Assembly: GCA_944390015.1 (NCBI GenBank)
Contig: CALXOL010000019.1
Coordinates: 1-40,542, forward strand
Length of the DNA: 40,542 nucleotides
Direction of reading: 5' to 3'
Origin: an uncultured Spirochaetaceae bacterium
GTDB lineage: Bacteria > Spirochaetota > Spirochaetia > Sphaerochaetales > Sphaerochaetaceae
The notes beneath the pieces are model-generated. The model made no database searches. It saw only the letters and a program-made list of their open reading frames with translations, and was not told the DNA's origin. The translations under genes were made by a program, and so were the position numbers. Below are positions 1,663-40,542 of the stretch, piece after piece. Numbering within the stretch: the first letter of the stretch is position 1; each line of letters begins with the position of its first letter.

Positions 1663-1676
1663 TATTGGAGAAGAAA

Positions 1677-2600: not shown

Positions 2601-2612
2601 GGAGGGCTTTGA

Positions 2613-21572: not shown

Positions 21573-21575
21573 AAA

Positions 21576-21619: not shown

Positions 21620-21645
21620 CACTCGAGCTGAAAGAAAATCTTTTT

Positions 21646-21676
21646 TTGAACGGAGAAATCATTTTTCTGCTATAAT
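21646..21676 (+). promoter_or_regulatory. Promoter of the cysteine desulfidase-like gene
   Basis: TGC-TATAAT at 21668-21676 is a consensus extended -10. TTGAAC at 21646-21651 is a possible -35 with a long, 19-base spacer. It drives the gene at 21721, whose ribosome binding site is AAAAAAGGA, and lies back to back with the feoAB promoter. Confidence 0.6.
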
Positions 21677-21720
21677 CTTTCTTGCTGTAATATTGTTTAG
21701 TTTCAAAAAAGGAAAATACG

Positions 21721-23007
21721 ATGGAAAAGAACAGGGAAATAGATGCTATCATGTCGGCCGAGCTTACATTGGCTTTAGGTTGTACAGAGCCGGCTTGTGC
21801 CGCACTCTCTGGTGCAAGACTGAGGGACGAACTCGGTTTTACGCCGAAGAAGGCAAGGGTGAATGTCTCAAGGGACATGATGAAGAATGCGATGGGTGTA
21901 TCCATTCCGAACAGCAATCTCTCAGGAATAAGTGCCGCGGTTGCCCTAGGACTTGCGACAGGGGAGAGCTCAAGGGGGCTGAGCGTGCTTTCCGCACTTG
22001 ATGATGGGAAAAGAAAGGATGCCTCTGCAATCGAGATAGAGCTCAATCTTGTGGAGAACGTTCCGTCCCTTTTCATAGAGGTAGAGGCCGAAGAGAATGG
22101 ACACTCGGCATCCGTTTCCATCGAAAATGAGCATGACAGGTTTTCACGCATAATGAAGGATGGTATTCGGGTTGAGGGTAATTCATCATTCTTCTCAGAG
22201 TGTGAGACCTCTATTGAGAATGAGCTTTTAGCCAGTCTGAGCCTCAGGGATGTAGTCAGCTATGCAGAGAGCCTCTCTGATGAGATGAAGGAGCTTTTAA
22301 GAAAAGCCTATATGACGAATCTGGAGATAAGCTATGCCGGTCTTGAAGAGGACTGGGGGCTTGCTGTGGGGCGTACCATGTTTCCACTTGTGAAAAAGAT
22401 AGAGAGTGTCGATGATGCAATGAGGAAAGCCGCAGCGCTTGCCGCAAGTGGAAGTGATGCCCGCATGTCCGGCTCCTGCCGCCCCGTTATGATAAACAGT
22501 GGAAGCGGGAACCAGGGAATCACGGTTACAGTCCCTGTTGCACTTTTAGCCGAATACCTCAAAGTAGGGGAGGAAAAACTTCTGTCCGCTCTTGCTATAA
22601 GTGAGCTCATAGGACTTATTCTCACGAATAAGAAGGCAAGACTATCTGCGCTCTGTGGAGCATTTACCGCATCGATTGCCACAGCCGCAAGCTGGGTGTA
22701 CCTTCTTGGTGGAAGCATGCGGGAGATGGATGCTGCGATAAACAACATGATTGCGAATCTCACGGGAATAATCTGCGATGGGGCTAAAAAAACATGTGCC
22801 TTGAAGATATATTCATCCCTTATTGCCGCAAGCGTGGCGACTCATCTTGCCATGAAGGGAAAGAGCGCTTCCAGTGAATCGGGCATAGTAGGCTCTGACA
22901 GCCTTGAGTCCATAAGGTATCTTTCCCAGCTCAGCCACGAGGGGATGGAGGAGACTGATAGGACGATTTTGAAAATAATGATCGAAAAGAGTGCGAATAA
23001 GGAATGA
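21721..23007 (+). CDS. L-cysteine desulfidase / serine dehydratase-like [4Fe-4S] enzyme (UPF0597, CyuA family)
   Basis: The 428-residue protein belongs to UPF0597, the family of L-cysteine desulfidase (archaeal CdsB-like enzymes and E. coli CyuA/YhaM), related to the iron-sulfur L-serine dehydratases. The four cluster cysteines appear at C21 (ALGCTEPAC), C312 (ALCGAFT), C352 and C359 (ICDGAKKTC). The last three have the 40- and 7-residue spacing of the archaeal enzyme. Other marks are SGSCRPVMINSGSGNQG, probably the substrate site, and NLTGIICDGAK. The expected reaction is cysteine to pyruvate, ammonia and sulfide, in the cytoplasm. A strong promoter and AAAAGGA precede the ATG. It is divergent from feoAB, whose iron it would need. 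Serine as the substrate is not excluded. Confidence 0.82.
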   Translation: MEKNREIDAIMSAELTLALGCTEPACAALSGARLRDELGFTPKKARVNVSRDMMKNAMGVSIPNSNLSGISAAVALGLATGESSRGLSVLSALDDGKRKDASAIEIELNLVENVPSLFIEVEAEENGHSASVSIENEHDRFSRIMKDGIRVEGNSSFFSECETSIENELLASLSLRDVVSYAESLSDEMKELLRKAYMTNLEISYAGLEEDWGLAVGRTMFPLVKKIESVDDAMRKAAALAASGSDARMSGSCRPVMINSGSGNQGITVTVPVALLAEYLKVGEEKLLSALAISELIGLILTNKKARLSALCGAFTASIATAASWVYLLGGSMREMDAAINNMIANLTGIICDGAKKTCALKIYSSLIAASVATHLAMKGKSASSESGIVGSDSLESIRYLSQLSHEGMEETDRTILKIMIEKSANKE

Positions 23008-25616: not shown

Positions 25617-26690
25617 TTAGCCGCTTGAGCGTGGAATAAGCTCCCATTTCAGTGACATGGATGACGGTTCTTCCTTATTAAGCATAGCTACAAGCATCTC
25701 GGCTGCGCTCTTTCCCGTTTTTTCCCTCTTGTGCCCGAGCGAAGTAATGGGTACGGCACCGATCTGGCTGTAGAAGCTGTTGTCGAAACTTACGACTGAG
25801 ATGTCGGATGGAACTTTCTTTTCAAATTCAATCATCCTTTTAATCAGTGTATATGCGATCTCGTCATTGTAGCATACCACCGCGGTTGAGCCCGAGAGAC
25901 GCTTGTTTATAAACCTGTCAATCCTGTCCGTTCCCTGTCCGCTTATGATTGCCTTTCTGTCCTCACTGTCATACCAGCAGAATGAGCTGTCGTTTATCTT
26001 AAGGCCGGCATCCACCATTGCTGAGACGACACCGTGGTACCGCTCAGGGCCCTGCATGTCATCACTTTTAAATATTCCTGCTATCTTCTTATGACCTTTT
26101 TCAATCAGGTACCGGGTGAGCATGTATCCTCCTCCATAGTTATCATCGAGGACGCATGGGAAATCAGGAAGATTTTTGTATGCACCATGTAAAAACAGTA
26201 CGGGAATCTCCATCTTCCTAAGTTTCATGAATAAGTCGCTGTTCGGGGTTGGAAGAGCGGTCTTGGAGCCCTCTATGAGTATGGCACTGACGCTTTTCTC
26301 CATTAGGGAGAGTAGTATCTCCCTCTCCCTCTCAACCTTGTTTTCCGTGGCATAAACCAGTGTCGAGTATCCGTTTTTCTCGAAAATGTTCTGAGCGTCA
26401 TGCAAAATGGTGGGAAAGATATAGTCATCGATGAATGTTGTGATTACGGCTATCTGCCTTGCATCTGTCCTCTCTTCCCTTATCTCCTTGATATACGATC
26501 CGCTTCCCTGGATTCTTTCAATAAGTCCTTCGCTTTCTAAGACTTCAAGCGCATTGCGCACAGTCTGTCTGCTTACATCGTAAGAAAGGGATATCTCCTT
26601 TTCCGTTGGCATCCTGTTGCTGCCGTTCTTCGTAATTCTTGCAATCTCTCCCCTTAGGAGATCTGCAAGTTGCATGTATTTTGCCGACAC
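25617..26690 (-). CDS. araR: AraR-type arabinose repressor (GntR DNA-binding domain + LacI-type sensor)
   Basis: This 357-residue regulator joins a GntR winged helix (about 1-70, with PTEKEISLSYDVSRQTVRNALEVLESEGLIE split around the recognition helix) to a periplasmic-binding-protein-like sensor domain of the LacI/GalR class (about 78-357, TDARQIAVITTFIDDYIFP onward). This combination is the hallmark of AraR, which leaves DNA on binding L-arabinose. The gene is divergent from a complete arabinose operon, which supports the name. The start is GTG at 26690 with AGGTGG 6 bases upstream. It would repress the operon, and probably itself, through the half-sites in the 297-base gap. Confidence 0.87.
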   Translation of the reverse strand: MSAKYMQLADLLRGEIARITKNGSNRMPTEKEISLSYDVSRQTVRNALEVLESEGLIERIQGSGSYIKEIREERTDARQIAVITTFIDDYIFPTILHDAQNIFEKNGYSTLVYATENKVEREREILLSLMEKSVSAILIEGSKTALPTPNSDLFMKLRKMEIPVLFLHGAYKNLPDFPCVLDDNYGGGYMLTRYLIEKGHKKIAGIFKSDDMQGPERYHGVVSAMVDAGLKINDSSFCWYDSEDRKAIISGQGTDRIDRFINKRLSGSTAVVCYNDEIAYTLIKRMIEFEKKVPSDISVVSFDNSFYSQIGAVPITSLGHKREKTGKSAAEMLVAMLNKEEPSSMSLKWELIPRSSG

Positions 26691-26987
26691 CTTTAACCAC
26701 CTTTGTATGATGATATCATGTTTCTTGGAATATTGGAATTGTATTTATTTTTGAAAGTTGAATACAAAATGTATTTTAAAAACTTATATTTGTATTCTTA
26801 ATGTAATGCTGTTTTTAAAAATAGAGCACTTAGAAATAAAAAAACGAGCTTAAAATGTATTTAAAAAAAATTAAAACAGTAATTTGTATTTAAAATAATG
26901 ATTACTTTCTGTGTCCCTTTAAAAATTTGTTGACAGCTCAAAAAACCCATGGTGTAATTTCAGTAGGATGTCATTGGAGGTAAAAAC
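26691..26987. promoter_or_regulatory. Arabinose control region with five TGTATT half-sites
   Basis: This very AT-rich gap between araR and the arabinose operon holds TGTATT at 26740, 26770, 26791, 26856 and 26885, all on the plus strand. The spacings of 30, 21, 65 and 29 bases are close to whole helical turns. The second copy forms an inverted repeat, AATACA-AAA-TGTATT (26761-26775). Flanks are A/T runs, giving a consensus like ATTTGTATTTAA, related to one half of the Bacillus AraR box. These are the likely AraR sites. An ATGATATCAT palindrome also lies near the araR start (26709-26719). Confidence 0.55.
26930..26958 (+). promoter_or_regulatory. Promoter of the arabinose operon
   Basis: TTGACA (26930-26935), a 17-base spacer and TGTAAT (26953-26958) form a near-consensus sigma70 promoter, the best in the window. 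The last TGTATT half-site lies 40 bases upstream of the -35, so repression probably needs looping or cooperative binding. Confidence 0.75.
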
Positions 26988-27020
26988 ATGGCATCTGAAA
27001 AAAACAAAGGAGAGGTAAAA

Positions 27021-27995
27021 ATGAAGAAATTATTGCTTTCTTTACTCGTTATGCTTCTTGCTGTAACGACAGTATTCGCAGGTGGAGCAGCAGAGGCTGC
27101 AGAAGAAGATGGTGGACTTATCAGAGTAGGTATCATCAATAACGACCCTAACGAATCGGGTTATCGTACTGCTAATGACAACGACATGAAGGCCATGTTC
27201 ACAGAGGAAAACGGCTATGACGCTTCTTTCTTCTATAGCCTTAGGAATGATGAGCAGATTGCAGCGGCTCAGAACTTCATACAGAATGAGGTTGACTACC
27301 TCCTGATTTCCGCAGCAGGAACAGCTGGATGGGATTCTGTTCTTCAGGATGCTCAGAACGCAGGTATCTATGTAATTCTTTTTGACCGCACAATCGATGC
27401 AGATGAAAGCCTCTATGTGGCTTCAATCGTATCTGATATGGCTCTCGAAGGGGAGACTGCGGTTAACTGGCTCGCTTCCCAGGGGCTTGATGAGTACAAC
27501 ATCATCCATATCCAGGGTGTCATGGGTTCTGCAGCTCAGATTGGAAGAACAGGCGCATTGGATGAGATGGTAGCTGCAAACGACAACTGGAATCTCGTAA
27601 CACAGCAGACAGCTGAATGGAACGCAGAGACCGCTCAGCAGATCGTACAGTCTGTAATCGATGCAGGAACTCCGTTCAACGTAATTTATGCTGAGAATGA
27701 TGATATGGCACGTGGCGCTGTCGCTGCTCTGGATAGAGCAAACATCTCACATGGAGTGGATGGAGACGTCATCATCATGGGATTCGATACTAACAAGTGG
27801 GCTCTCGAGGAACTTCTTGCTGGAAGATGGAACTATGATGGACAGTGCAATCCTTTCCAGGCTGCATACATCGATGAGATCATCAAGAATCTTGAGCAGG
27901 GCATTCAGCCAACAGAAAAGGTCATCTACCTTGAAGAGAGAGGATTCGATGCTGCGACTATCACAGCAGAGGATGTTGAGAAGTACGGAATCTAA
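27021..27995 (+). CDS. Sugar ABC transporter substrate-binding protein (YtfQ-like)
   Basis: The protein is a periplasmic type I binding protein of about 324 residues. A signal peptide (MKKLLLSLLVMLLAVTTVFA) precedes GGAAEAAEEDGG, then LIRVGIINNDPNESGYRTAN. The segments GTAGWDSVLQDAQNAGIYVILFDRTID and YAENDDMARGAVAALD match the galactofuranose-binding protein YtfQ. Here arabinose genes follow in the operon, so L-arabinose (or an arabinoside) is the likelier ligand. Two in-frame starts exist: ATG at 26988, after GGAGG, and ATG at 27021, after AAAGGAGAGG. Only the second places the signal peptide at the N-terminus, so I choose it. Confidence 0.88.
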   Translation: MKKLLLSLLVMLLAVTTVFAGGAAEAAEEDGGLIRVGIINNDPNESGYRTANDNDMKAMFTEENGYDASFFYSLRNDEQIAAAQNFIQNEVDYLLISAAGTAGWDSVLQDAQNAGIYVILFDRTIDADESLYVASIVSDMALEGETAVNWLASQGLDEYNIIHIQGVMGSAAQIGRTGALDEMVAANDNWNLVTQQTAEWNAETAQQIVQSVIDAGTPFNVIYAENDDMARGAVAALDRANISHGVDGDVIIMGFDTNKWALEELLAGRWNYDGQCNPFQAAYIDEIIKNLEQGIQPTEKVIYLEERGFDAATITAEDVEKYGI

Positions 27996-28022
27996 TCCGG
28001 TTTAAAAATATTTTCTGGAAGG

Positions 28023-28065
28023 CAAGGCACGGGGAAGCAGAGCCAAATGCTGTCCACGTGCCTTG
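28023..28065 (+). other. Intercistronic hairpin after the binding-protein gene
   Basis: A 9-bp perfect stem (CAAGGCACG with CGTGCCTTG) closes an internal structure with further pairing (AGCAG with CTGT, GG with CC), between the binding-protein and ATPase genes. No U run follows, so it is less a terminator than an mRNA 3'-end stabiliser or partial attenuator. Such hairpins allow more binding protein than membrane components. Confidence 0.6.
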
Positions 28066-28103
28066 ATTGTTAATTGGAAGATTAAAAAAAGGAGTGATAT
28101 GGC

Positions 28104-29609
28104 ATGCAGAAGGATTCTGTTCTTGAAATGAGGGGAATCTCAAAAAGCTTTTATAGCGTAAAAGCACTGCAGAATGTCGATTTTACGCTTAGAGAAGGGG
28201 AAATCCATGCTCTGATGGGTGAAAACGGAGCTGGAAAATCTACACTTATTAAAGTCCTTACTGGTGTGTATGAGAAGGATGAGGGAGAAGTATACCTTAA
28301 GGGTGTTGAAGGTGCTGTTCACATCAAATCTCCCGAAGATGCCCAGAATCTTGGGATAAGCACCGTTTATCAGGAAATTACGCTCTGTCCGAATCTGACC
28401 GTGGCAGAGAACATGTATATAGGTAGAGGCAAAGCAAAAATCACACGGTGGCGTAAGATGAACTCGGATGCTACGAGAATTCTTGAGAGCCTTCAGATTC
28501 CGGCAAAGGCGGACCAGCAGCTTGGAACCTGTTCGATTGCAGTTCAGCAGATGGTTGCCATCGCACGGGCAGTGGATATGGACTGTAAGGTTCTCATACT
28601 CGATGAACCTACATCCTCCCTTGACGAGAATGAGGTTGCTAAACTATTCAAGCTGATGCTTGATTTAAAGAGCCGTGGGGTTGGAATAATTTTCGTAACC
28701 CATTTCCTTGACCAGGTCTACGAGGTCTGTGACAGGATTACTGTCCTCAGGGACGGAAAACTGGTAGGGGAGTACGCCATTGAGAATCTTCCCCGTGTCG
28801 AACTCGTTTCAAAGATGCTTGGAAAGGAGCTTGACGACCTTTCGGAGATAAAGAGTTCAGATGGTTCTGATGAGGTTCTTGGTGAGGTCATATACAAGGC
28901 GGACGGACTTTCAAGTATTGCCTCCAATCCTTTCAATTTTGAAATCCATAAAGGGGAGGTCAATGGTTTTACCGGGCTTTTAGGCTCTGGGCGAAGTGAG
29001 TCTGTTCGTGCGATTTTCGGTGCCGATAAGGTAACAGGGGGAAAAGTTCACATCGATGGAAAGGATGTGCACATCTCAAGACCGAGAGAGGCGATGAAAT
29101 ATGGTATCGGCTATCTTCCTGAGGACAGGAAGAGGGATGGGATCGTAGGAGACCTCTCTGTAAGGGAGAATATAATTCTTGCTCTTCAGGTAATGAAGGG
29201 ATTCTTTGGTCCGATTTCAAGGGCGAAGGCCGAGGAATTTGCTGATAAGTACATCAAGCTCCTTGAGATTAAGACTGAGTCCCCTGACACTCCGATCAAA
29301 TCCTTATCTGGAGGAAACCAGCAGAAGGTCATTCTTGCCAGATGGCTCTTAACAAATCCTCAGTATCTTATTCTGGATGAGCCTACAAGGGGAATCGATA
29401 TCGGAACAAAGATTGAGATTCAGAAGCTCGTGCTTGACCTTGCAAAGGAGGGAAAGAGCGTCACGTTCATCTCCTCTGAGATAGATGAGATGCTTAGAAC
29501 CTGTTCCAAGCTCTATGTTATGAGGGATGGCAAGCAGGTTGGAGAGATCTCGGGTGAGGGTCTGACACAGACTAATGTGATGAATACTATTGCAGGAGGG
29601 GGAAATTGA
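28104..29609 (+). CDS. Sugar ABC transporter ATPase with two nucleotide-binding domains (YtfR/AraG-like)
   Basis: This 501-residue protein has the duplicated ATPase layout of ribose/arabinose/galactofuranose importers. The first domain has Walker A GENGAGKST, Walker B VLILDEPTSSLD and the switch His in FVTHFLDQ; its signature is altered to CSIAVQQMVAIARA. The second domain has the usual degenerate Walker A (GLLGSGRSES), a good signature LSGGNQQKVILARWL and LILDEPTRGID. It powers uptake through the two permeases downstream. GGAG is 9 bases before the ATG, and the stop overlaps the TTG start of the first permease. Confidence 0.93.
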   Translation: MQKDSVLEMRGISKSFYSVKALQNVDFTLREGEIHALMGENGAGKSTLIKVLTGVYEKDEGEVYLKGVEGAVHIKSPEDAQNLGISTVYQEITLCPNLTVAENMYIGRGKAKITRWRKMNSDATRILESLQIPAKADQQLGTCSIAVQQMVAIARAVDMDCKVLILDEPTSSLDENEVAKLFKLMLDLKSRGVGIIFVTHFLDQVYEVCDRITVLRDGKLVGEYAIENLPRVELVSKMLGKELDDLSEIKSSDGSDEVLGEVIYKADGLSSIASNPFNFEIHKGEVNGFTGLLGSGRSESVRAIFGADKVTGGKVHIDGKDVHISRPREAMKYGIGYLPEDRKRDGIVGDLSVRENIILALQVMKGFFGPISRAKAEEFADKYIKLLEIKTESPDTPIKSLSGGNQQKVILARWLLTNPQYLILDEPTRGIDIGTKIEIQKLVLDLAKEGKSVTFISSEIDEMLRTCSKLYVMRDGKQVGEISGEGLTQTNVMNTIAGGGN

Positions 29610-30703
29610 AAGAGATAGCCAATAAGAAAAGCGGCTTGAAGACAGCAACGCAGCTGATGAGAAAGCAGATATTCATTCCTATCGCCGCTCTTTTGATTCT
29701 TGTATTATTCAATCTTATCGCGGATCCTTCGTTCTTCCAGATAAATTATGCGAAGAACAGCGCAGGAGATCCTGTTCTCTCCGGTTATCTGATTACGATA
29801 TTGGATAATGCATCCGAACTTGCCATCCTGGCAATCGGCATGACCCTTGTAACGGCCGCTTCAGGTGGTCAGGACATAAGCGTCGGTGCTGCAATTGCCA
29901 TAAGCGGAAGCGTGGTTCTACGTGTCCTCTGCGGGGATAACCCACGTCCTGAGGAGATGCAGGCATCCATTCTTACTGCATTCCTGGTAAGCTGTCTTGT
30001 ATCGATGCTCTTCGGTGCTTTCAACGGTACTTTGGTCGCTTATTTTAACATACAGCCGATGATTGCGACATTGATCCTCTATACTGCGGGAAGATCGATT
30101 GCCGCATGGATTAACAATAACAGGCTTCCTATAATATCAGATCCGGTATTCGGGTATTTTGGAACGTTCATCCCGGGAATTCCAATACCAACACCGATAT
30201 TCATAGCCGCAGCATGCATGATAATAATCGCGCTTGTTCTTAAGTTTACGACGCTTGGCCTTTATACGCAGGCAGTAGGAATAAACCCAAATTCGGCTAA
30301 ACTCAATGGCATTAATCCACAGTTGATAAAGTTCATCACATATGTGATCATGGGACTTTGTGTAGCCGTTGCAGGATTTATAAAAGTCACGAGGTTCTCT
30401 ACGATAAACTACTCCGTAGTCGCTGCGGATATCGAGATGGATGCAATCCTTGCAGTTGCTCTTGGAGGAAACGCACTCTCTGGAGGACGATTCAGCATGG
30501 TCTCATCCATACTCGGTGCGTATGTGATTCAGTTCCTGACTACGACGCTCTTCAAGTTCAATGTCTCTTCGAGTGCTCTTCCTGCATATAAGGCAATAGT
30601 CGTCATAGTACTAGTTATAATCAGTGCTCCGACTGTGAGGGAGAAGCTTTCAAAGTTCTGGAAGAGAATACAGACATCGAGAATCAGGAAGGAGGCCGCA
30701 TGA
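29606..30703 (+). CDS. Sugar ABC transporter permease 1 (YtfT-like)
   Basis: The 365-residue membrane protein has eight to ten helices and the BPD_transp_2 fold of ribose-type permeases. Family marks are ASELAILAIGMTLVTAASGGQDISVGA near the front and EMDAILAVALGGNALSGGRFSM near the end, where the coupling to the ATPase is made. The insertion after TM1 (FFQINYAKNSAGDPVLSGYL) is characteristic of YtfT. The start is TTG at 29606, overlapping the ATPase stop (TTGA) with GGAGGGGG before it. It ends 4 bases inside the second permease gene. Confidence 0.9.
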   Translation: MKEIANKKSGLKTATQLMRKQIFIPIAALLILVLFNLIADPSFFQINYAKNSAGDPVLSGYLITILDNASELAILAIGMTLVTAASGGQDISVGAAIAISGSVVLRVLCGDNPRPEEMQASILTAFLVSCLVSMLFGAFNGTLVAYFNIQPMIATLILYTAGRSIAAWINNNRLPIISDPVFGYFGTFIPGIPIPTPIFIAAACMIIIALVLKFTTLGLYTQAVGINPNSAKLNGINPQLIKFITYVIMGLCVAVAGFIKVTRFSTINYSVVAADIEMDAILAVALGGNALSGGRFSMVSSILGAYVIQFLTTTLFKFNVSSSALPAYKAIVVIVLVIISAPTVREKLSKFWKRIQTSRIRKEAA

Positions 30704-31746
30704 TGAAGACTGCTTTTAACAAGAAGACAAGAAAACTTGCGATGATGTCGGATACGAATCTCCTTCTCACGATTACAATCGTTGTTTTCGTACTGATGTA
30801 CCTCTCTGCCATGCTCTTCATAGGACGAGGCTTCCTCCGTTTCCAGATGTTCTTTAACATACTCAATGAGAATGCCGCCTTGATAATACTTTCCTGTGGA
30901 ATGAGCATCGTCATGATAACCGGAGGCATCGACATCTCAGTCGGCAAGCTTACGGCTCTTATCTGTATGAGCGCCGCGGTTAATCTCGATTACCAGGGTG
31001 GAAATGTTATGACTGCGGTTCTTCTCTCTCTTGCAATAGGAATTGCATTCGGCCTTGTACAGGGTTATCTTGTGGCATACCTGGATATCCAGCCGTTCAT
31101 CGTAACTCTTGCAGGTATGTTCTTCGCAAAAGGTATGACTACGATTGTTAATTCAACACAGTTCAATGTAGAGAACGAGGCTTTCGTGGCTTTGAAGAAT
31201 ACAAGGGTGTATGTTCCTGGAACGGGTTATGTGAATAGGCTCGGGGTATATGTACCATCCTATGTCGAGATAGGAGTCATCATCGCACTTTTGACCGTTG
31301 CGCTGCTCTTCGTGATTCTCAGATGGACAAAGCTTGGAAGAAGCTTCTACGCTGTGGGTGGAAACTCCCAGAGTGCGAACATGCTCGGAATAAACGTCAA
31401 GAGAACGAAGTTCCTTGCACACCTTCTTTGCGGACTACTTGCTGGAATCGGCGGTTTCGTCTACTTCCTGCATGTCGGTTCTGGTGCTCCCTCTCATGCT
31501 ACGGGAGCCGAGATGAATGCCATCGCATCCTCCATAATCGGTGGAACGATGCTCACTGGCGGAGTCGGGAATATCATAGGAACTCTCTTTGGAGTACTTT
31601 CTCTAAGTACGATTAAGAATATAGTAACGATGCTTGGTCTTGATGATGCATGGTGGACCAATATTACAGTCGCACTCATGATCTGTATCTTCCTCGTCGT
31701 ACAGTCTGTCGTTCTTCTGAGAAAGAGGGGAAAAACAAAGGCTTAG
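30700..31746 (+). CDS. Sugar ABC transporter permease 2 (YjfF-like)
   Basis: The 348-residue protein is a second BPD_transp_2 permease, paired with the one before it. It has about ten helices, with ALIILSCGMSIVMITGGIDISVGKLTAL and EMNAIASSIIGGTMLTGGVGNIIGT as family signatures. YtfT and YjfF together form the heterodimeric pore in the galactofuranose system. ATG at 30700 overlaps the preceding stop; a second ATG at 30703 is equally possible given GGAGG at 30691-30695. The kinase gene follows without a gap. Confidence 0.9.
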   Translation: MMKTAFNKKTRKLAMMSDTNLLLTITIVVFVLMYLSAMLFIGRGFLRFQMFFNILNENAALIILSCGMSIVMITGGIDISVGKLTALICMSAAVNLDYQGGNVMTAVLLSLAIGIAFGLVQGYLVAYLDIQPFIVTLAGMFFAKGMTTIVNSTQFNVENEAFVALKNTRVYVPGTGYVNRLGVYVPSYVEIGVIIALLTVALLFVILRWTKLGRSFYAVGGNSQSANMLGINVKRTKFLAHLLCGLLAGIGGFVYFLHVGSGAPSHATGAEMNAIASSIIGGTMLTGGVGNIIGTLFGVLSLSTIKNIVTMLGLDDAWWTNITVALMICIFLVVQSVVLLRKRGKTKA

Positions 31747-31755
31747 GAGGTTATG

Positions 31756-33312
31756 ATGACAATTGATTTATCATCCTGCTATCTGGGAATAGAATTCGGT
31801 TCGACAAGAATCAAAGCCGTTTTAATCTCTTCCGATTATGTTCCACTTGCCTCTGGAGGCTATACATGGGCCGATCATCTTGAGTCAGGATACTGGTCAT
31901 ATACCATGGACGAGGTTAAGAAAGGGCTCAGAAGCTGCTATGCGGAGCTTAAGAAGGAAGTAAGAGATAGATACGGCGTCGTTATCAATAAAGTAGGTGC
32001 GATCGGCATTTCTGCGATGATGCATGGTTATCTTCCTTTCGATAAGAATTGGGAGCTGTTAACTCCGTTTAGAACGTGGAGAAACACAACCACAGGAGAG
32101 GCTGCGGAAAAACTTACTGAGCTTTTCTCTTTTAACATTCCTCAGCGCTGGAGTGTCGCACATCTTTATCAGGCTATACTCAATAAAGAAGATCATGTAG
32201 CACGCATCTCATATCTGACGACACTTTCTGGGTATGTGCATTATCTTCTCACATCGGAGAATGTACTCGGGGTAGGAGATGCTTCCGGCATGTTCCCCAT
32301 CGATTCAGATACATGCGGTTATGACAGTGTGATGGCATCAAAATTCAAGGCCCTCACAGGGCTCGATATCCTTGAAATCCTTCCCAATGTGCTTAAGGCA
32401 GGGGATGATGCGGGATCTCTCACAGCTGAGGGTGCGCTTCTTCTGGATGAGGATGGAGATCTGGAGATCGGCATTCCGTTTGCTCCTCCTGAGGGGGATG
32501 CGGGAACAGGAATGACTGCTACGGACTCAGTACGTGAGAGGACGGGAAACGTCTCTGCAGGGACATCTATTTTCTCCATGGTTGTTCTGGAAAAGATGCT
32601 TAATGCCGTACACCCGGAGATAGACATGGTTACCACCCCAACGGGAAAACCTGTGGCAATGGTGCATTGCAATAACTGTACTACGGATATGAACAGTTAT
32701 GTATCGATCATAAGGGAAGCTGTTGAGCTTATGGGCGGAAACAGTGATCTTGATGAGATATACCGTCTGCTTTATAAGAAATGCCTTGAGGGCGAGCTGG
32801 ATGCAGGAGCTTATACCGTCTATAACTACATCTCGGGGGAGCCTGTTGTCGGTCTCAATGATGGAAAGCCTATAATCGTAAGAAGAGCGGATAAGCCTGC
32901 GAGGCTGGCGGATTTCGTGAGAGCACACCTTTATTCAGCTCTTGCTGCCCTTGCGTATGGCATGTCAATTCTAAGGGATGAAGGGGTGAAGATAGATCGC
33001 CTGATGGGGCATGGAGGACTATTCCGTCACCCCGTGACAGGTGCGAAGTTCCTTGCCTCTGCAGTCGATGCCTCGGTATATACGATGAAAACCGCAGGCG
33101 AGGGTGGTCCGTACGGAATGGCCCTTTTAGCCGCATATAGGATCAGAGGGAAAGGTTTAAGCCTTGAGGACTTCCTCGATGAGAAGGTGTTTAAGGATGC
33201 AGAAGGGTCCAGAATGGATCCTCTGGAGAGTGAAGTAAAAGGATTCAAGGCCTATCTTGATAGATTCCTAAAAGGTCTTGATGTGGAGAAGATCGCGATA
33301 CGCTGTTTTTGA
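31756..33312 (+). CDS. araB: FGGY-family sugar kinase, probable L-ribulokinase
   Basis: The protein has 518 residues and the two-lobed FGGY kinase fold: the N-terminal phosphate loop YLGIEFGSTRIKAVLI, a central AIGISAMMHGYLPFD, GDAGTGMTATDSVRERTGNVSAGTS and the C-terminal LMGHGGLFRHPVTGAKFLASAV. It should phosphorylate L-ribulose to L-ribulose-5-phosphate. It is shorter than and distinct from the E. coli AraB type, so the name rests mainly on its place between the importer and araA/araD. Two ATGs occur; 31756 has the better spacing to AGGAGG than 31753. The stop lies 14 bases before the araA start. Confidence 0.78.
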   Translation: MTIDLSSCYLGIEFGSTRIKAVLISSDYVPLASGGYTWADHLESGYWSYTMDEVKKGLRSCYAELKKEVRDRYGVVINKVGAIGISAMMHGYLPFDKNWELLTPFRTWRNTTTGEAAEKLTELFSFNIPQRWSVAHLYQAILNKEDHVARISYLTTLSGYVHYLLTSENVLGVGDASGMFPIDSDTCGYDSVMASKFKALTGLDILEILPNVLKAGDDAGSLTAEGALLLDEDGDLEIGIPFAPPEGDAGTGMTATDSVRERTGNVSAGTSIFSMVVLEKMLNAVHPEIDMVTTPTGKPVAMVHCNNCTTDMNSYVSIIREAVELMGGNSDLDEIYRLLYKKCLEGELDAGAYTVYNYISGEPVVGLNDGKPIIVRRADKPARLADFVRAHLYSALAALAYGMSILRDEGVKIDRLMGHGGLFRHPVTGAKFLASAVDASVYTMKTAGEGGPYGMALLAAYRIRGKGLSLEDFLDEKVFKDAEGSRMDPLESEVKGFKAYLDRFLKGLDVEKIAIRCF

Positions 33313-33326
33313 TAAAGGAGGAAAAA

Positions 33327-34790
33327 ATGGAAAAGAAAGAATTCTGGTTTGTCGTTGGTTCTCAGTTCCTATATGGTCCTGAGGTGCTTGAGACTGTTGA
33401 GAAAAGAGCAAGAGAGATGGCCGCAGAGATGTCGAAATCTCTTCCTTATAAGCTTGTATATAAGGTAACTGCAAAAACAAATAAAGAGATTACGGATGTT
33501 GTCAAAGAGGCGAATTATGATGATTCATGTCTCGGTATCGTAACATGGTGTCATACATTCAGCCCCAGTAAGATGTGGATAAATGGACTTGAGGCTCTCC
33601 AGAAGCCATACTGCCACCTTGCGACACAGTATAACATGGAGATTCCAAACGAAGAGATCGATATGGATTTCATGAATCTTAACCAAGCCGCACATGGAGA
33701 CAGGGAACATGGTTTCATTGCCGCACGACTGAGGATGAAGAGAAAGATCATCGCAGGTTATTGGCGTGATGAGAAAGTTTTAAGCCGTCTCTCTTCCTGG
33801 ATGAGGACTGCCAACGGGTATGCGTTCTCCAAGAGCATGAAGGTCATGAGGTTCGGAGACAACATGAGGGAAGTCGCAGTCACCGAAGGGGACAAGGTCG
33901 AGACTCAGATTAAGCTCGGCTGGCAGGTAAATACATGGCCTGTAGGTAAGCTCGTCGAAGTGATGGATGGTGTAAGCGAGAAGGAAATCGATGATCTGAT
34001 GGATGAGTACAGGGCATCATACGATTTCGCAACTGATGATATCGAGACTGTACGCTATCAGGCAAGGGAAGAGATTGCCATAAAGAAGATGATGGACAGT
34101 GAAGGATGCTCTGCTTTTTCCAATACGTTCCAGGATCTTTATGGAATGGAACAGCTTCCAGGACTTGCCAGTCAGCATCTAATGGCGCTCGGCTATGGAT
34201 ATGGCGGAGAGGGAGACTGGAAGGTAAGTGCGATGATGAGCATCATGAAAAGGATGGGAAAGGATGAGAACGGAGAGTCTGCTTTCATGGAGGACTACAC
34301 CTATAATCTTGTTCCAGGGGCTAAGTACAGTCTTGGTGCCCATATGCTCGAAGTCTGTCCTACAATCGCATCAGGCCGACCTCGCATAGAGGTACATCCT
34401 TTGGGAATCGGAGATAGAAAAGATCCGGCACGTCTTGTTTTCGAGGGCAAGGAAGGGGATGCCATCGTCGTGTCCTTGATAGACATGGGGGGCCGTCTTC
34501 GCTTGATCTGCCAGGACATTAAGTGCGTCAAACCTATTCTTCCAATGCCGAATCTTCCTGTAGCCCGTGTAATGTGGCAGGCATATCCTGATCTTGAGAC
34601 AGGTCTTGAGTGCTGGATAACCGCAGGTGGTGCGCATCATACGGTTTTGAGCTATGATGTAAGTGCGGAGCAGATGAAGGACTTTGCGAACATGATGGGA
34701 ATAGAGTTCGTGCATATCACGAAGGAGACCACTGTTGAAAGTCTTGAAAAAGAGCTCTTCTTAAACGATATCGCATGGAAGCTGAGGTAA
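33327..34790 (+). CDS. araA: L-arabinose isomerase
   Basis: The enzyme converts L-arabinose to L-ribulose. The 487-residue protein starts with [17 protein letters not shown], as AraA does. The Mn-binding and catalytic residues are present: E295 in GGEGDWK, E322 in FMEDYTY, H339 in [10 protein letters not shown] and H437/H438 in [10 protein letters not shown]. They correspond to E306, E333, H350 and H450 of the E. coli enzyme. Length is slightly below the usual 500. ATG at 33327 follows AAGGAGG by 6 bases; an upstream TTG at 33309 precedes that ribosome binding site and is rejected. Confidence 0.97.
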
Positions 34791-34791
34791 T

Positions 34792-35481
34792 ATGTTAGAG
34801 AAACTTAAAGAAGAGGTATGCAGAGCTAATCTTGAACTTCCGAAATACGGTCTTGTAACTTTCACATGGGGCAATGTTTCTGGAGTTGACAGGGAGAAAG
34901 GCTTGATGGTCATCAAACCAAGCGGGGTAAGCTATGATAACATGTGTGCAGATGACATGGTCGTCGTATCCCTTGAGACGGGGGAGAAGGTGGAAGGAAG
35001 GTGGAAACCTTCTTCAGATACACCTACACATGTAGTGCTTTACAACGCATTTAAGAATATCGGGGGAATCGTGCATACCCATTCCAGATGGGCGACATCG
35101 TTTGCCCAGGCCGGGGTAGGAATTCCTGCGTATGGCACGACACAGGGGGATTATTTCTATGGAGAGATTCCTTGTACGAGGAAGATGACTGCCGATGAGA
35201 TAATGGGTGAGTATGAGAAGGAGACGGGAAACGTCATCGTAGAGAGGTTCAAGAGCTTATCTCCTGATGATATCCCAGCTGTTCTTGTGAACTCCCATGG
35301 CCCGTTTGCCTGGGGCTTGGATGCTGAGAACGCGGTACATAATGCAGTAGTACTTGAGGAGGTTGCATTCATGGCTTTTCATGCGAGGATGCTCAATCCT
35401 GATCTAAAGCCGATGCAGAAAACTCTCCTTGATAAGCACTATCTGCGAAAGCATGGAGCTAATGCCTATTACGGGCAATGA
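34792..35481 (+). CDS. araD: L-ribulose-5-phosphate 4-epimerase
   Basis: The 229-residue class II aldolase-like enzyme turns L-ribulose-5-phosphate into D-xylulose-5-phosphate, which enters the pentose phosphate pathway. The catalytic D76 and the zinc ligands H95 and H97 (VHTHSRW) and H169 (NSHGPFAWG) are at the expected places, and TWGNVSG and KPSGVSYD bind the phosphate. Size is the same as in E. coli. The ATG lies 1 base after the araA stop, with GAGGTAAT before it. It is the last gene of the arabinose operon. Confidence 0.96.
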
Positions 35482-35498
35482 ATATTTTGATGATGCTT

Positions 35499-35524
35499 GC
35501 AGCCCTGCCATATGGTGGGGCTGC
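35499..35524. terminator. Hairpin at the end of the arabinose operon
   Basis: A GCAGCCC/GGGCTGC stem (7 bp, inner CCATATGG can extend it) begins 17 bases after the araD stop and ends 7 bases before the stop of the convergent barrel gene. It is GC-rich but followed only by TCTAAATT, so it may act in both directions. Confidence 0.65.
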
Positions 35525-35531
35525 TCTAAAT

Positions 35532-36794
35532 TCAGAATCTGTATCCTGCTTTTATTCCTATTGATAGGTCTTCAAACGAGAATGAGATCTCTCCTTGGAG
35601 CCCGAGGTATTCTACTCCGAAGAGAATGCCGGAGTACTCCAGGCCTGTATTGATGCTGAGTTCCTCATTGATGTCGTAGATGAAATATGCCTTTGGTACT
35701 GCGAAGAAGTCGAAAGTCATATTGTCTCTCTCATTCATCCAGATAAGCTGACGTACTATGTCTCCCATCTCCGCTACCACATGATACTTTCCGTAATCCC
35801 AACGGGCTCTGACTATGATATCGAGTGGTTCGTAGTATACGTTCTCATCCATATCAAGGCCATTGAAATTTACGAAATCTGTAAGCTCCATGATTGCATA
35901 TTTTCTGAAAGATACAAGATTGGTAAAATCCATAGTGAATGCGAGATTATCTGAATGGCGGTACATCACTCCTGCATTAAGAGAAACACCCATGCCGAGT
36001 CTGAACGGGTTCTGGATCGCCAATGCTCCAGAGAAGCGCGCATCAAGAAGTGCCGGATTATTAATTATGTTGTTTGCATAAAGTCCTGCTTCTAAACTCG
36101 TTCCAATTGTTATCTTCTCATTGAGAAAATGGAATGCATAACCGACATCTCCTCTGACATCAAGGCCTAGGATACTGGAAGAGGATGAGAGCATATTACC
36201 GCTTCCTGAAAGTCCTATGTTTGATTTAACTCTCCATCCAAAACCATTGCCCTCGATAACCCCTCCATGCATCTTAAGCGTCAAATCCAGCGCTCCATTA
36301 AGCTCTGGAGCTGATGAAGATTTAAAGATGTTCGTATTGTTAATGGCTTTTATAACGGCACTTGCCTTTTGGCTCTCATCAAATCGATGAGCATATGAAT
36401 CTTTTAAGTATGCTTTTATCTGGGCAATATTTGCTTCTGATAATGGTTGGGTGAATATTGGTTTTGAAGAATCAAAATCAAACATTAGAGAGAATATACT
36501 GTAGTTTTCATTCCAGAAAGATTCATCTCCATTCATCAACGTGTCATAGAGGTAGTCAGAAGCCTCAGCCAAGGAAGATGATGGATTAGCCAGATAAGAT
36601 AGATAATCTATGGCGCTCATTGCCTCAATATCGAATCCAAAATGCACAACAGTCTTTTCCGCTTCCAGCAAAAGAGCAGGGGAAGAGAAGATGTCGTCCT
36701 TATCGAAATAGTAATCGTTGAAAGGTACTAATGAAGCACTAAGTGGAGCGATAACAAAACAAATAGAAATTAAAACAATTATAAGCTTTTTCAT
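35532..36794 (-). CDS. Putative outer-membrane beta-barrel protein
   Basis: This 420-residue protein has a signal peptide (MKKLIIVLISICFVIAPLSAS) and no membrane helix after it. The first part of the mature protein (about 20-165) is helical and polar. The rest alternates short amphipathic strands (GFGWRVKSNIGLSGSG, KITIGTSLEAGLYANN, LGMGVSLNAGVMYRHSD) and ends SIGIKAGYRF, with the terminal Phe used by the BAM machinery. It is therefore probably an outer-membrane barrel with an N-terminal periplasmic or surface domain. I do not recognise the family. It lies 15 bases after a lipoprotein gene with AAAGGAGG before the start, so the two are one operon. Its codons look more AT-rich than those of the arabinose genes. 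Confidence 0.7.
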   Translation of the reverse strand: MKKLIIVLISICFVIAPLSASLVPFNDYYFDKDDIFSSPALLLEAEKTVVHFGFDIEAMSAIDYLSYLANPSSSLAEASDYLYDTLMNGDESFWNENYSIFSLMFDFDSSKPIFTQPLSEANIAQIKAYLKDSYAHRFDESQKASAVIKAINNTNIFKSSSAPELNGALDLTLKMHGGVIEGNGFGWRVKSNIGLSGSGNMLSSSSSILGLDVRGDVGYAFHFLNEKITIGTSLEAGLYANNIINNPALLDARFSGALAIQNPFRLGMGVSLNAGVMYRHSDNLAFTMDFTNLVSFRKYAIMELTDFVNFNGLDMDENVYYEPLDIIVRARWDYGKYHVVAEMGDIVRQLIWMNERDNMTFDFFAVPKAYFIYDINEELSINTGLEYSGILFGVEYLGLQGEISFSFEDLSIGIKAGYRF

Positions 36795-36809
36795 TTTTCA
36801 TATCCTCCT

Positions 36810-38645
36810 TTAGTTACTTTCCCTTTCTATTAAGTAGAAGCAGTAAATTGAATCTTGTTTTGCCAAAGGATCATTATATTTTTCACCTTCCTGACCATTA
36901 TTGTTGTTGTAGGAATTTGTATATAAGAATCCGTTTACTGTACTAGCACTTGAACCCGTTCCCATGTTCTTGAATTTTATTACTGGTCTATATGTCTCTC
37001 CGTCATAATATTCCATGAATTCAAATGTCGTATCTGTTGTAGTTTCTCCAATTAGCGCATTTGTTATGGTTGTAGTTTTTACTCTATCTTTCGTAATTTC
37101 TGGGTTATTATTAAGTTTCCAACTATCTGGAGATACACTTGTAAAACTATTCCATTTTTCACTATTTGCTTTATATGCATATTGTTGAGGTGTAGTTCCA
37201 CCATATGGATAAGGGGCTTGAATGTTCAATATTTCGTCTCCTGCGGCCTTATCTATTAATGGCATTATTCTCAAATCCGTATTGTAACTTTTGCAGATGG
37301 GATCATCTTCGGAATAGTAAACATAGTATGGATAATCGCTATTATCAGCAGACTTTGTTACTTTTATAACAAATGACATTGGTGTGTTAGGCTTTAGAAA
37401 ACCTTTAACTTTTCCAACCCACTCATAGCTCTTACCATTAACAGGATCATCTCCAGCAAAGCTCTTGGTTTTTACGTTGTTTATAGTCATGGATTCAACT
37501 GTTGCATATTCTGCATTAGTTGGTTTAATACTTAGCGTACTCCCGTAATCGGTATTGCTGTCGAGCCCAGAGATTGTTATCTTTCCGTTTTCAGCTTTTG
37601 CTGTAGCATTAGGCGCTCCAGAAATTGAGAATGTCAATGATTCTAAATCTATATCATCCGCGAAGTTGATTGGTAATACAACGCTCTTATAGTTGATTAC
37701 TGGTGTCGAAACAGTCATAAGCGGAGTAGTGTATTTGAACATATTGCTCACGACAGTCTTGTTCGAGGCATCATTTGCAGAAACATAGAAATAGCCGCTC
37801 TCTAGGCTTTTAAGACTGCTAATATTAATCGTTGCTTTCTCACTACTTACTTGGGCATTTGAGTAAATTAAAATGCTGTTTGAAGATGTAGAATTATCTT
37901 TTTTCTTGTAAAGGTTCAGAGATGTAATTCCTTCTGGAATTCCAGCAATCGTGAAAGCTTGATTTGAAACATTTAATGACATTGGTGCAGAAATGTTTTC
38001 ATCATATGTGTTGATATATAATTCAGCATAGTTGCTACCATACGTAGTGTCTGTAGTAAGTTTATGATAAACCTTTATTGTATATGTATCATTTGCTGTA
38101 AGCCCTGTTATCGTAAGTGTATTACTTGTGTTGTTATCGAAGATTTGTTCCTGATTCCCGATTCCTTCAACTTTGTAGTTAACATTTTTAGGGTTGATTG
38201 AGGTATTAATTATGATTTCGGCTGATGTCTCATTTCTACGTGCAACATATGCATCTGGTTTTACGTTTTCCAAAGACATAACATATTGAACTATTGCTAT
38301 AGCACTCATTTCATTAGGTTTATTGGTATTGTTTCCTGCATAAATTGTTATTTCTCCTGTGCCTCCTTCCTGTATATCTGAGATTGAGAACACGTATTTC
38401 CCGTCTATGAAACTTGGTTGTGGCGCTATTATGATTTCCTCGTCATTTATCTTGTATCCATAGCTTGTAGCGTATGCAACGGGAGAAAAGCTGACTTCGA
38501 TTGAATTTGGACCTTTTACTGTTACTATCGGTTCTTCTTTCAAAGAGTTTGGTTCTTCCTTTGGTAAGTTATCAACCAATACTGGCGAGCATGCCATAAG
38601 CAGCAATACTAATAAAGTGATTAGAAGATAGAATTGTTTTTTCAC
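36810..38645 (-). CDS. Large lipoprotein with fibronectin type III-like repeats
   Basis: The 611-residue protein starts MKKQFYLLITLLVLLLMACS, a type II signal peptide with lipobox LMAC. The mature part is almost all beta: segments such as GPNSIEVSFSPVAYATSYGYKIN, NTLTITGLTANDTYTIKVYH and GKITISGLDSNTDYGSTLSI look like three or four Fn3-type repeats (about 35-125, 130-220, 225-310, 315-400). A C-terminal domain (about 400-611), rich in Tyr, Asn and Asp, is unlike the repeats. It is probably a surface or periplasmic adhesin or glycan-binding protein, but this is inference. The start is GTG at 38645 with AAGGA before it. The beta-barrel gene follows in the same operon. The sequence is AT-rich and looks fast evolving. 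Confidence 0.72.
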   Translation of the reverse strand: MKKQFYLLITLLVLLLMACSPVLVDNLPKEEPNSLKEEPIVTVKGPNSIEVSFSPVAYATSYGYKINDEEIIIAPQPSFIDGKYVFSISDIQEGGTGEITIYAGNNTNKPNEMSAIAIVQYVMSLENVKPDAYVARRNETSAEIIINTSINPKNVNYKVEGIGNQEQIFDNNTSNTLTITGLTANDTYTIKVYHKLTTDTTYGSNYAELYINTYDENISAPMSLNVSNQAFTIAGIPEGITSLNLYKKKDNSTSSNSILIYSNAQVSSEKATINISSLKSLESGYFYVSANDASNKTVVSNMFKYTTPLMTVSTPVINYKSVVLPINFADDIDLESLTFSISGAPNATAKAENGKITISGLDSNTDYGSTLSIKPTNAEYATVESMTINNVKTKSFAGDDPVNGKSYEWVGKVKGFLKPNTPMSFVIKVTKSADNSDYPYYVYYSEDDPICKSYNTDLRIMPLIDKAAGDEILNIQAPYPYGGTTPQQYAYKANSEKWNSFTSVSPDSWKLNNNPEITKDRVKTTTITNALIGETTTDTTFEFMEYYDGETYRPVIKFKNMGTGSSASTVNGFLYTNSYNNNNGQEGEKYNDPLAKQDSIYCFYLIERESN

Positions 38646-38772
38646 GTTTTCCTTCTTTTAAATTCATTTTTTTACAACAAAAATCATAGAATTTGTTGTT
38701 TTTGCATTAATAAAATATATAAATGTCTAATTCGTTACAACTATAGTATAGCACGGATTTGTTAAGTTGCAG
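38646..38772 (-). promoter_or_regulatory. Upstream region of the lipoprotein gene with leader hairpin
   Basis: On the minus strand a TGC-TATACT extended -10 (around 38735-38745) is the likely promoter. The leader then holds an inverted repeat ACAACAAA-10-TTTGTTGT (38674-38699) before the AAGGA ribosome binding site. On the plus strand the same repeat is followed by TTTTTGC and would look like a terminator, but no gene reads into it from that side. The repeat may be an operator or an mRNA stem. Confidence 0.4.
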
Positions 38773-38812
38773 TTAAAAGAAAAGGCCTGCCCGTTTTCTC
38801 TGGACAAGCCCT
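38773..38812 (-). terminator. Intrinsic terminator of the DUF362 gene
   Basis: On the minus strand AGGGCTTGTCC pairs with GGGCAGGCCT (one bulged G, two G-U pairs) around a 9-base loop, followed by TTTTCTTTT. The hairpin spans 38783-38812 and the U-rich tail 38773-38782. It lies 22 bases after the DUF362 stop and separates that gene from the lipoprotein operon. Confidence 0.8.
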
Positions 38813-39769: not shown

Positions 39770-40357
39770 CTATTCTGACACTGTGTCAATATTATTTTCT
39801 TTGTTCCTTAGCCTGCGTACGGTCGAAGCACATATTATAGTCGTTGGAATGCAGATTCCCCAGTTAGATACGAGCATCATTATGCCGAGGGCGGTCGCTC
39901 CGTCTTTTATGAAAAGCTGGAGAATGAAGAGTACGGGAATACGAAAGACGAATATCTTCAAAAAATTAAGCACGAGTGTGATTTTTGTTTTTCCAAGACC
40001 AAGGAGGAAGTCTATTCCCGCACCGTTAAGCGCTATTCCTAGACATCCGATTGAATCATATATGAAGATTTTCCTTATATTTTCTTTGAATGATGCATCG
40101 TAGCCTGTTCTGCTTGTTGCGAATATGTCTAAAAGAAAATCATTTATCAGGAAGAGAAAGGAAATGGCGATTATGCTTGCCACCATTGTAATTACGAAGT
40201 TTGCTTTATAAGCTTTAATTGCCCTTTTATATTTGCCTGCACCATAATTCTGGCTGATGATTGAGGAGGATGCGTCTGAAAACCCGTTTTCAACCCAATT
40301 CTCCAGGAGTCTCCATCTTCTAAGCGAAGCGAAAGGTGGAGAGGAATGGAGGAAGAA
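39770..40357 (-). pseudogene. MATE-family efflux transporter, C-terminal part (probably broken)
   Basis: The open frame reads LLENWVENGFSDASSSIISQNYGAGKYKRA and then five or so membrane helices to ...TVRRLRNKENNIDTVSE. This is the C-terminal half of a MATE transporter (TM7/8 motif QNYGAGK onward, then TM8-12). A normal MATE has about 450 residues; here the frame is closed upstream by TGA at 40358-40360. The first ATG in it (40186) would start in the middle of the conserved domain. Immediately upstream of the MATE homology lies a hairpin-bearing stretch (see 40310-40342). The gene is thus truncated or interrupted. A sequencing error cannot be excluded. Confidence 0.6.
40310..40342. repeat. Hairpin-forming inverted repeat inside the broken MATE gene
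   Basis: TCTCCATCTT and AAGGTGGAGA form a 10-bp stem with one G-U pair around a 13-base loop (CTAAGCGAAGCGA). It sits where MATE homology breaks off. Its compact form resembles a REP-like or MITE-like element, but only one copy is visible in the window, so a mobile nature is not shown. Confidence 0.4.
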
Positions 40358-40360
40358 TCA

Positions 40361-40542
40361 TCAGATATGATAGGATTAAGACATGAAGAAATGGCGGGAT
40401 GAAGAGTATGAGTTTGAGATTAAGGTTACAGGATATCTGAGGGGAGATAAGCCGAAGGCCTCTGTCGCAACGGTGAGGAGATTGGCGACAAGTATTCCTG
40501 CACCTATGGCTGTCCGGTGAATCAGGAAGGATATCGTATGCC
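40361..40542 (-). other. Region upstream of the MATE fragment; hydrophobic remnant in another frame
   Basis: On the minus strand one frame runs from the window edge to TAA at 40376-40378. It begins with a hydrophobic piece (TAIGAGILVANLLTVATEAFG) like a membrane helix, then turns polar. TAIGAGILVAN could be an early helix of the same MATE protein. The distance to the C-terminal part is far too short for an intact gene, so an internal deletion plus frameshift would be needed. The evidence is weak. Confidence 0.3.

Follow-up and report, generated by a model that had tools for sequence, protein, structure and literature searches.

Two adjacent genes on the minus strand of a 40,542-nucleotide contig from an uncultured Spirochaetaceae bacterium (CALXOL010000019.1; this whole analysed stretch is referred to as the window) encode a lipoprotein and an outer-membrane barrel protein that form a paired unit, as supported by their linkage across genomes, their congruent trees and their nearness to other lipoprotein genes in 13 of 54 loci. 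Sequence comparisons indicate that the C-terminal domain of the lipoprotein, here called the tip, can occasionally be replaced wholesale and within sharp boundaries. With about even confidence, we read the pair as a dedicated surface-display unit, in which the barrel would anchor and display its own lipoprotein and the outer tip would recognise. A first-pass annotation of the window had proposed the two genes as a candidate surface system; the paired unit has stood up on linkage and congruent trees, whereas lipoprotein export in the Slam sense, an unrecognised barrel fold and an N-terminal position of the barrel helices have not. No description of the pair was found in the open-licence text of PubMed Central (PMC).

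Linkage and shared history of the two genes

The 611-residue lipoprotein is followed after 15 bases by the barrel, and the coordinates, lengths and gap given in the first-pass annotation proved exact (Table 1). Our first set comprised 41 barrel genes, three of which (L063, L083 and L097) lie at contig ends without upstream DNA and were dropped; all 38 remaining barrels had a lipoprotein gene directly upstream. Two of these lipoproteins (L064 and L069) are cut by a contig end, leaving 36 complete pairs. Single-sequence search with the window protein found 19 of the 38 lipoproteins, and the other 19 were identified by position, lipobox and length. A profile built from the window protein and 17 complete search-found lipoproteins recognised all 19 held-out sequences (expectation value, E, <1e-76) and none of 20 control lipoproteins, namely the c2 and c5 proteins described below. 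In a second set of 12 loci from a second genus (g12) and two from the window's own genus (g1), the lipoprotein gene lay upstream of the barrel in 13/14, with that of L147 cut by a contig end. Including the window and leaving out two small fragments (G016 and G007:C11), a lipoprotein of the same family thus stands directly upstream in 52 of the 53 barrel loci whose upstream DNA can be read, and this is the co-occurrence in other genomes that the first-pass annotation had set as a test of its proposal. Among the 36 complete pairs, 35 have an intergenic gap between -4 and +19 bases; in L093, re-choosing the start yielded a 4-base overlap.

Trees of 37 barrels and 37 lipoproteins were congruent. 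The Mantel correlation between the two families was 0.80 (maximum of 2000 permutations, 0.18), and 23 of 34 splits were common to both trees, where shuffling gave at most 3 by chance in 500 shuffles. Splits with support of at least 0.9 numbered 28 and 27 in the two trees, with 20 in common, and 26 of the 37 members had the same nearest neighbour in both. Six genomes contribute 13 paralogous copies. For 12 of these the nearest neighbour agrees between the trees, and for the remaining one the same two neighbours come in swapped order, so that partners are retained through duplications. It is quite improbable, in our estimate, that two unrelated envelope genes merely travel together: operon genes can be co-inherited without sharing a complex, yet here the linkage in 52/53 loci extends over varied neighbourhoods and through duplications, with paralogues faithful to their partners.

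Single-sequence search found the barrel in 36 of 100 relatives; with a 37-row profile, 47 of the family's 139 genomes have it, all within 2 of 22 genera. These are 35 of the 48 genomes of g1, some of them incomplete, and 12 genomes of g12, in which at least four further genomes lack it. Of the 13 barrel-negative g1 genomes, G021 and G043 contain the lipoprotein, truncated by the end of a contig, and both may therefore also have the barrel. Over 297 genomes of the class, 23 gave a barrel match, of which 17 fall in g1 and g12 and the remaining six are weak matches (E 5e-7 to 5e-4). The lipoprotein was found in 25/100 relatives by single-sequence search and in 51/100 by profile, many of the latter being shorter proteins that share the C-terminal part only. 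The pair is sometimes present in several copies per genome.

Predicted architecture of the barrel and the lipoprotein

The structure model of the barrel, built from an input of eight sequences, reached a predicted local distance difference test score (pLDDT) of 77.8 and a predicted template modelling score (pTM) of 0.68. It contains 15 DSSP strand segments, or 14 strands if residues 314-320 and 325-334 are counted as one broken strand. Structural comparison with VIA placed CymD (Z 19.1), FadL (18.8) and TbuX (18.7) first, with 262-270 residues aligned at a root-mean-square deviation (rmsd) of 4.2-5.3; further FadL-family chains and CymA tie with these top matches and OmpG comes next. Overall, FadL-family chains matched at Z 17-19 over 255-280 residues. 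Two chains with Z 17.4 and 17.1 we take to be PorV of type 9 complexes, and three with Z 17.3, 16.8 and 16.3 are presumably BamG of Bacteroidota BAM (barrel assembly machinery) complexes. Foldseek gave E ~1e-7 with TM-scores near 0.4, which supports the class of fold well but not its details. The model is thus recognisable as a predicted 14-strand FadL-type fold. The barrel model has held in structure prediction, the second test set by the first-pass annotation, and its statement that neither family can be recognised now applies to the C-terminal domain of the lipoprotein, which has no Pfam family, and no longer to the barrel fold.

A hatch-like motif, [SHT]-P-[AGS], occupies barrel residues 38-40 in 37/37 members, and the range aligned in the VIA comparison begins at residue 26-28 (residues 13-33 being poorly modelled, with pLDDT <50). 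According to passages of PMC8407342, FadL carries an NPA motif in its hatch. The barrel motif lies near that position and has S, T or H in place of the N. The helices that the first-pass annotation had assigned to an N-terminal domain do exist in the model, but they form an insert of about 90 residues (62-153) after strand 1. This insert would be extracellular because both barrel ends would lie in the periplasm, and with a count of 14 strands the other helices in loops would be on that side too. Its conservation is 0.47, compared with 0.49 for the whole mature barrel.

Sequence families recognise the barrel sparingly. Pfam OMP_b-brl matches seven of the 37 homologues, at E 1e-5 in the best case, and not the window barrel itself; together with the model, these matches bear out the barrel, ending in GYRF, of the first-pass annotation. 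Toluene_X (PF03349) matches one of 37 members at E 0.015, and we therefore speak of a FadL-type fold and not of a member of the FadL family. Single-sequence searches with the window barrel gave no matches, and no TonB-receptor family was among the Pfam matches of the 37 members. Membership in UPF0164 (PF03687) was rejected, with an hhalign probability of 3.9% against 12 UPF0164 proteins, as was kinship with c8, a small putative outer-membrane protein (OMP) from the neighbourhood of some pairs (14.6%, signal peptide only).

The lipoprotein consists of a lipidated tail of ~20 residues, about four Fn3-like domains that form a predicted stalk, and a beta-rich C-terminal domain of ~210 residues, part of which is modelled at pLDDT <50. 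The sequence C-x-P stands at the lipidated Cys in 34/37 homologues. Fn3-like repeats, claimed in the first-pass annotation, are supported at family level: 16 of the 37 homologues match Pfam fn3 with an E no higher than 1, the lowest being 2.4e-12, and fibronectin chains match in a profile search at 2.2e-8. The window protein alone matched fn3 at E 0.54 only, and other single-sequence searches with it gave nothing solid. In a VIA comparison covering residues 29-216, the stalk matched a fibronectin segment with Z 11.9 over 165 residues (rmsd 5.2).

For the C-terminal domain, the best Pfam family by number of members matched, out of 14 proteins, was DUF5991 (2 members, E 0.1), so that no family was assigned, and the PDB profile matches shown for this query all fell in its Fn3 part. 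The first-pass annotation was right to call the domain distinct, as it recurs in shorter stand-alone proteins without a barrel. One of these, of 268 residues, is encoded in the window genome (L115:6264-7070) beside a gene that by eye is topoisomerase-I-like; a stand-alone protein with this domain also lies near a topoisomerase-I-like gene, again recognised by eye, in another genus of the family (L116, ~7259-7978). The domain occurs as well in lipoproteins of ~320 residues, of which those at L099, L100 and L102 adjoin c2 or c2 and c5. At L101:3-6199, a short lipoprotein with this domain stands directly behind three genes akin to the efflux genes at 367-5759 of the window.

Tip exchange and the role of the pair

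Restriction to pairs with a mature-barrel identity of 60% or more left 31 overlapping comparisons among 50 loci. In the clearest case, the second copy of G032 and the pair of G018 have an identity of 0.99 in the mature barrel, 0.92 in the stalk and 0.30 in the tip. DNA identity between these loci is 0.86-0.97 over the stretch that opens ~100 bases 5' of the lipoprotein start and closes with the stalk, falls to 0.41-0.57 over 600 bases of the tip and returns to 0.83-1.00 over the barrel and downstream; farther upstream the loci are unlike each other. At base level, the left breakpoint lies immediately after the FETKSFAG codons, at the start of the C-terminal domain, and the right breakpoint within the codons of the barrel signal peptide. 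G025 and G024 gave a similar profile at 100-base resolution (stalk 0.85-1.00 with one block of 0.65, tip 0.50-0.58, barrel mostly 0.85-1.00), and their barrels have different signal peptides. G004 and G035 (tip 0.26, stalk 0.57, barrel 0.75) may represent an older replacement, and a control pair (G003/G023) had no drop in identity over the tip. No recent donor for the G018 tip was found in the 48 same-genus genomes, the best matches being 44% (G047) and 51% over 89 residues (G043).

Over all pairs, which are not independent of one another, stalk identity correlated with barrel identity at r 0.89 and tip identity at 0.71. It is because the tip changes while barrel and stalk do not, and because the stalk tracks the barrel better than the tip does, that we favour a display unit with a recognising tip. 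A FadL-type barrel with a hatch-like tail and an outer helical cap would sit in the outer membrane and grip the lipidated N-terminal tail and the stalk of its own lipoprotein. The Fn3-like stalk would point outward, and the beta-rich C-terminal domain would contact a ligand, a surface or another cell. The barrel would serve as platform and anchor, and probably not as the specificity part, since the tip is replaceable while the barrel stays nearly unchanged.

Several observations weigh against this reading. Replacement, defined as a tip more than 0.2 less conserved than the stalk, occurred in only 3 of the 31 close comparisons, and in 19 of them the tip was more conserved than the stalk by more than 0.05. 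In the g12 loci L150, L151 and L153, stalks of 0.31-0.37 identity accompany barrels of 0.80-0.87, and there the whole ectodomain has diverged. The two trees contain five strongly supported conflicts. One barrel, L120 (L120:6878-8239), has no lipoprotein upstream. It lies in unrelated surroundings, and over 1362 bases its DNA identity with a copy from g1, a genus other than its own, is 98.75%; either the barrel alone was recently transferred or the assembly is at fault (chimeric contig). In the barrel model, residues 13-33 fall below a pLDDT of 50 and a count of 14 strands is reached only by joining two segments. We infer both the surface exposure of the lipoprotein and binding by its tip, and the physical contact between barrel and lipoprotein from genetics. 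Finally, the hatch-like motif in every member could mean that a transport function has been retained.

This last point leads to nutrient uptake as the main rival, in which the lipoprotein would capture a probably hydrophobic or amphipathic substrate and hand it to a FadL-type channel for release into the membrane or periplasm. In favour of uptake, the closest structural matches of the barrel include FadL, TodX and CymD, and the hatch-like motif is present in 37/37; moreover, UPF0164, a FadL-like family of Treponema, was not found in any of the 36 same-genus genomes searched. FadL-like proteins of Treponema pallidum have been proposed as importers of hydrophobic nutrients, according to passages of PMC8407342. 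However, the replacement of a tip over a 99% identical mature barrel fits poorly with a ligand-specific channel, Toluene_X is matched by a single member at the weak E given above, and no fatty-acid or hydrocarbon genes were found among the scanned neighbours in the window (other loci were not systematically annotated). We regard uptake as unlikely, though a serious contender.

The first-pass annotation had also pointed to lipoprotein surface export, for which a Slam-like barrel would flip the neighbouring lipoprotein to the cell surface. A helical part, a barrel of FadL size adjoining one lipoprotein gene and one-to-one pairing would all suit such an exporter. This suggestion has nevertheless found no support: there is no Slam among the 14 Pfam families matched by the 37 members at E up to 10 (a search in which HMMER filters drop most weak matches), the helices are inserted after strand 1 instead of preceding the barrel, and the best matches of the model are FadL-type. 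Such an exporter is therefore improbable.

Returning to the display unit, we tentatively extend it to a form that is less likely than not to be right: spirochaete surface recognition with exchangeable tips, in which the barrel would permanently carry an Fn3-stalk lipoprotein, recombination would swap a tip cassette between a conserved coding stretch where the tip begins (SFAG) and the codons of the barrel signal peptide, and the pair would, in about a quarter of loci, be part of a larger coat or adhesion machine beside the array described below. If so, the cell would alter its target, or how visible it is to phages and hosts, and keep its membrane anchor.

Locus, neighbouring genes and known designs

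Table 1. Features of the lipoprotein-barrel locus (positions in the window)
Feature	Positions	Strand	Basis and remarks
Lipoprotein gene	36810..38645	minus	611 aa, GTG start; coordinates and length exact
Lipoprotein signal peptide and lipobox, lipidated Cys19	38589..38645	minus	alignment
Predicted stalk, about four Fn3-like domains, residues 39-397	37455..38531	minus	domain limits set from model; profiles
C-terminal domain, residues 398-611, beta-rich, putative exchangeable tip	36813..37454	minus	no Pfam family
Intergenic gap, 15 bases	36795..36809	minus	AGGAGG immediately 3' of lipoprotein stop (from sequence)
Outer-membrane barrel gene	35532..36794	minus	420 aa; FadL-type model; coordinates and length exact
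Hatch-like N-terminal segment of mature barrel, residues 22-47, SPA motif at 38-40	36654..36731	minus	model, alignment
Helical insert between strands 1 and 2, residues 62-153	36336..36611	minus	model; extracellular by inferred topology
Other barrel strands, residues 169-419; protein end GYRF	35538..36290	minus	model
Extended -10-like element TGCTATACT (TG-C-TATACT)	38745..38753	minus	possible promoter of the pair; by eye
Terminator-like hairpin 3' of upstream DUF362 gene	38782..38812	minus	-17 kcal/mol, z -2.4
Hairpin between convergent barrel and araD-type genes	35499..35524	unassigned	without long T run

A promoter of its own, which the first-pass annotation had claimed for the pair, is plausible: the extended -10-like element 5' of the lipoprotein gene, found by eye behind the terminator-like hairpin, suggests separate transcription. 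On the other side, a promoter scan lists no site at this element; the scan gave 11 sites, fewer than the mean of 15.6 in shuffled sequence. The two genes have a G+C content of 0.353 and 0.405, against 0.452 in the rest of the window, and are thus AT-rich, as had been claimed. This is not a family trait, with the lipoprotein gene below its flanks in 22/36 loci and the barrel gene in 19/36, and horizontal acquisition argued from AT-richness was rejected on that ground.

At least one of three genes, c2, c5 and c8, lies within 8 kb in the 13 of 54 loci mentioned at the outset, or in 10 of 25 when the count is limited to loci with 5 kb of DNA to either side. The c2 gene encodes a lipoprotein of ~1000-1250 aa that matches Fn3; the c5 lipoprotein, of ~750 aa, has no fn3 match of its own, and its repeats are profile-similar to those of c2; c8 is classed by eye only; and c18 is a small lipoprotein between c5 and c8. 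The order in g12 is c2-c5-c18-c8-lipoprotein-barrel (L061, L144, L148 and L152; also L121, with c2 beyond the fetched stretch), and in g1 lipoprotein-barrel-c2-c5-c18-c8 (for example L070 and L073), with pair and array converging in L081. That nearness to the array is kept through rearrangement suggests a joint role. An obligate joint system with c2, c5, c18 and c8 was rejected, as presence alone does not speak for it: in the 48 same-genus genomes, c5 (27 long matches and one cut by a contig end) occurs in 20/35 with the barrel and 8/13 without. The window genome carries its own array, c2-c5-c18-c8, as four codirectional genes on another contig (G000:C18, L114, 4386-11091).

Next to the pair in the window, an L-arabinose block (25617-35481) encodes a GntR/LacI-type regulator, a binding protein, an ABC (ATP-binding cassette) transporter, an FGGY kinase, an arabinose isomerase and a class II aldolase-type protein. 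The adjoining kinase, isomerase, aldolase-type and sugar transporter genes would make the pair a candidate lipoprotein-barrel sugar importer within arabinose utilisation. Yet block and pair are transcribed towards each other, the neighbours differ at other loci, and the closest relative, G045, has the pair in the same flanking genes with the whole block absent, its barrel being followed directly by a phosphoesterase gene that in the window stands beyond the block. There is therefore no fixed tie to arabinose, and this explanation, refuted as a general one, retains hardly any probability. Elsewhere in the window, a MATE-like gene (39770-40542; Pfam MatE E 3.3e-4, under its cut-off) has an open frame of 195 aa with its stop 185 bases before the contig end, against 487 aa in the G045 homologue, and is either broken or an assembly fault. 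FeoA and FeoB domains are joined in one 974-aa protein (19227-22151), preceded by ~190 residues without a Pfam match at E 1e-10.

Among known systems, BamG-BamH of Bacteroidota is the nearest design, likewise a FadL-type barrel gene paired with a lipoprotein gene (here, pairing is read from the genes). According to passages of PMC12611786 and PMC12578637, BamG is a FadL-type 14-strand barrel that holds the surface lipoprotein BamH by its lipidated tail and by extracellular strand extensions, and a putative BamG2-BamH2 operon exists. In contrast, the spirochaete lipoprotein is a predicted Fn3-like rod with another C-terminal domain, its barrel contains the helical insert described above, the pair is dispensable (the barrel was not found in 13/48 same-genus genomes) and sometimes multi-copy, and nothing found here links it to BamA. 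We set it apart from BamG-BamH because it is not universal in its lineage, with the barrel in 35/48 same-genus genomes and 2/22 genera. The hydrophobic channels FadL, TodX and CymD resemble the barrel in predicted fold and possibly in an N-terminal hatch with a Pro-Ala-type motif; they differ from it in the ~90-residue helical insert, the lipoprotein partner and the lack of Toluene_X recognition by Pfam. Distantly related are FadL-like barrels of other spirochaete families (L127, L129 and L130), to which the barrel aligns with an hhalign probability of 97.2% (E 2.9e-11, 224 columns; the six sequences compared are four profile hits and two neighbours, and thus not independent). These barrels bear an NPAG motif and occur in the order barrel-lipoprotein-barrel, with lipoproteins of ~200-230 aa as against 611 aa here, one of which was scanned and had no Pfam match at E 0.1. 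PorV of type 9 secretion has the FadL-type fold in common, whereas the barrel here is paired with a lipoprotein gene. SusCD/RagAB are built on a large TonB-dependent barrel, unlike the 14-15 strands in 420 residues, free of TonB-receptor Pfam matches, that we describe.

By analogy, the pair may work like a known design, a FadL-type barrel with a surface lipoprotein, while being neither a member of BamG-BamH nor, by sequence, one of Pfam FadL. Uncultured spirochaetes thereby gain a barrel-lipoprotein pair that is defined genetically and belongs to the type recently described as BamG-BamH in Bacteroidota, and FadL-type barrels may more widely hold surface lipoproteins, beyond their role as channels. 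The tip swaps found in nature amount to experiments already set up, in which barrel and stalk are constant and the putative recognition domain differs. How lipoproteins are placed on the spirochaete surface is a long-standing question, and the pair makes one version of it testable.

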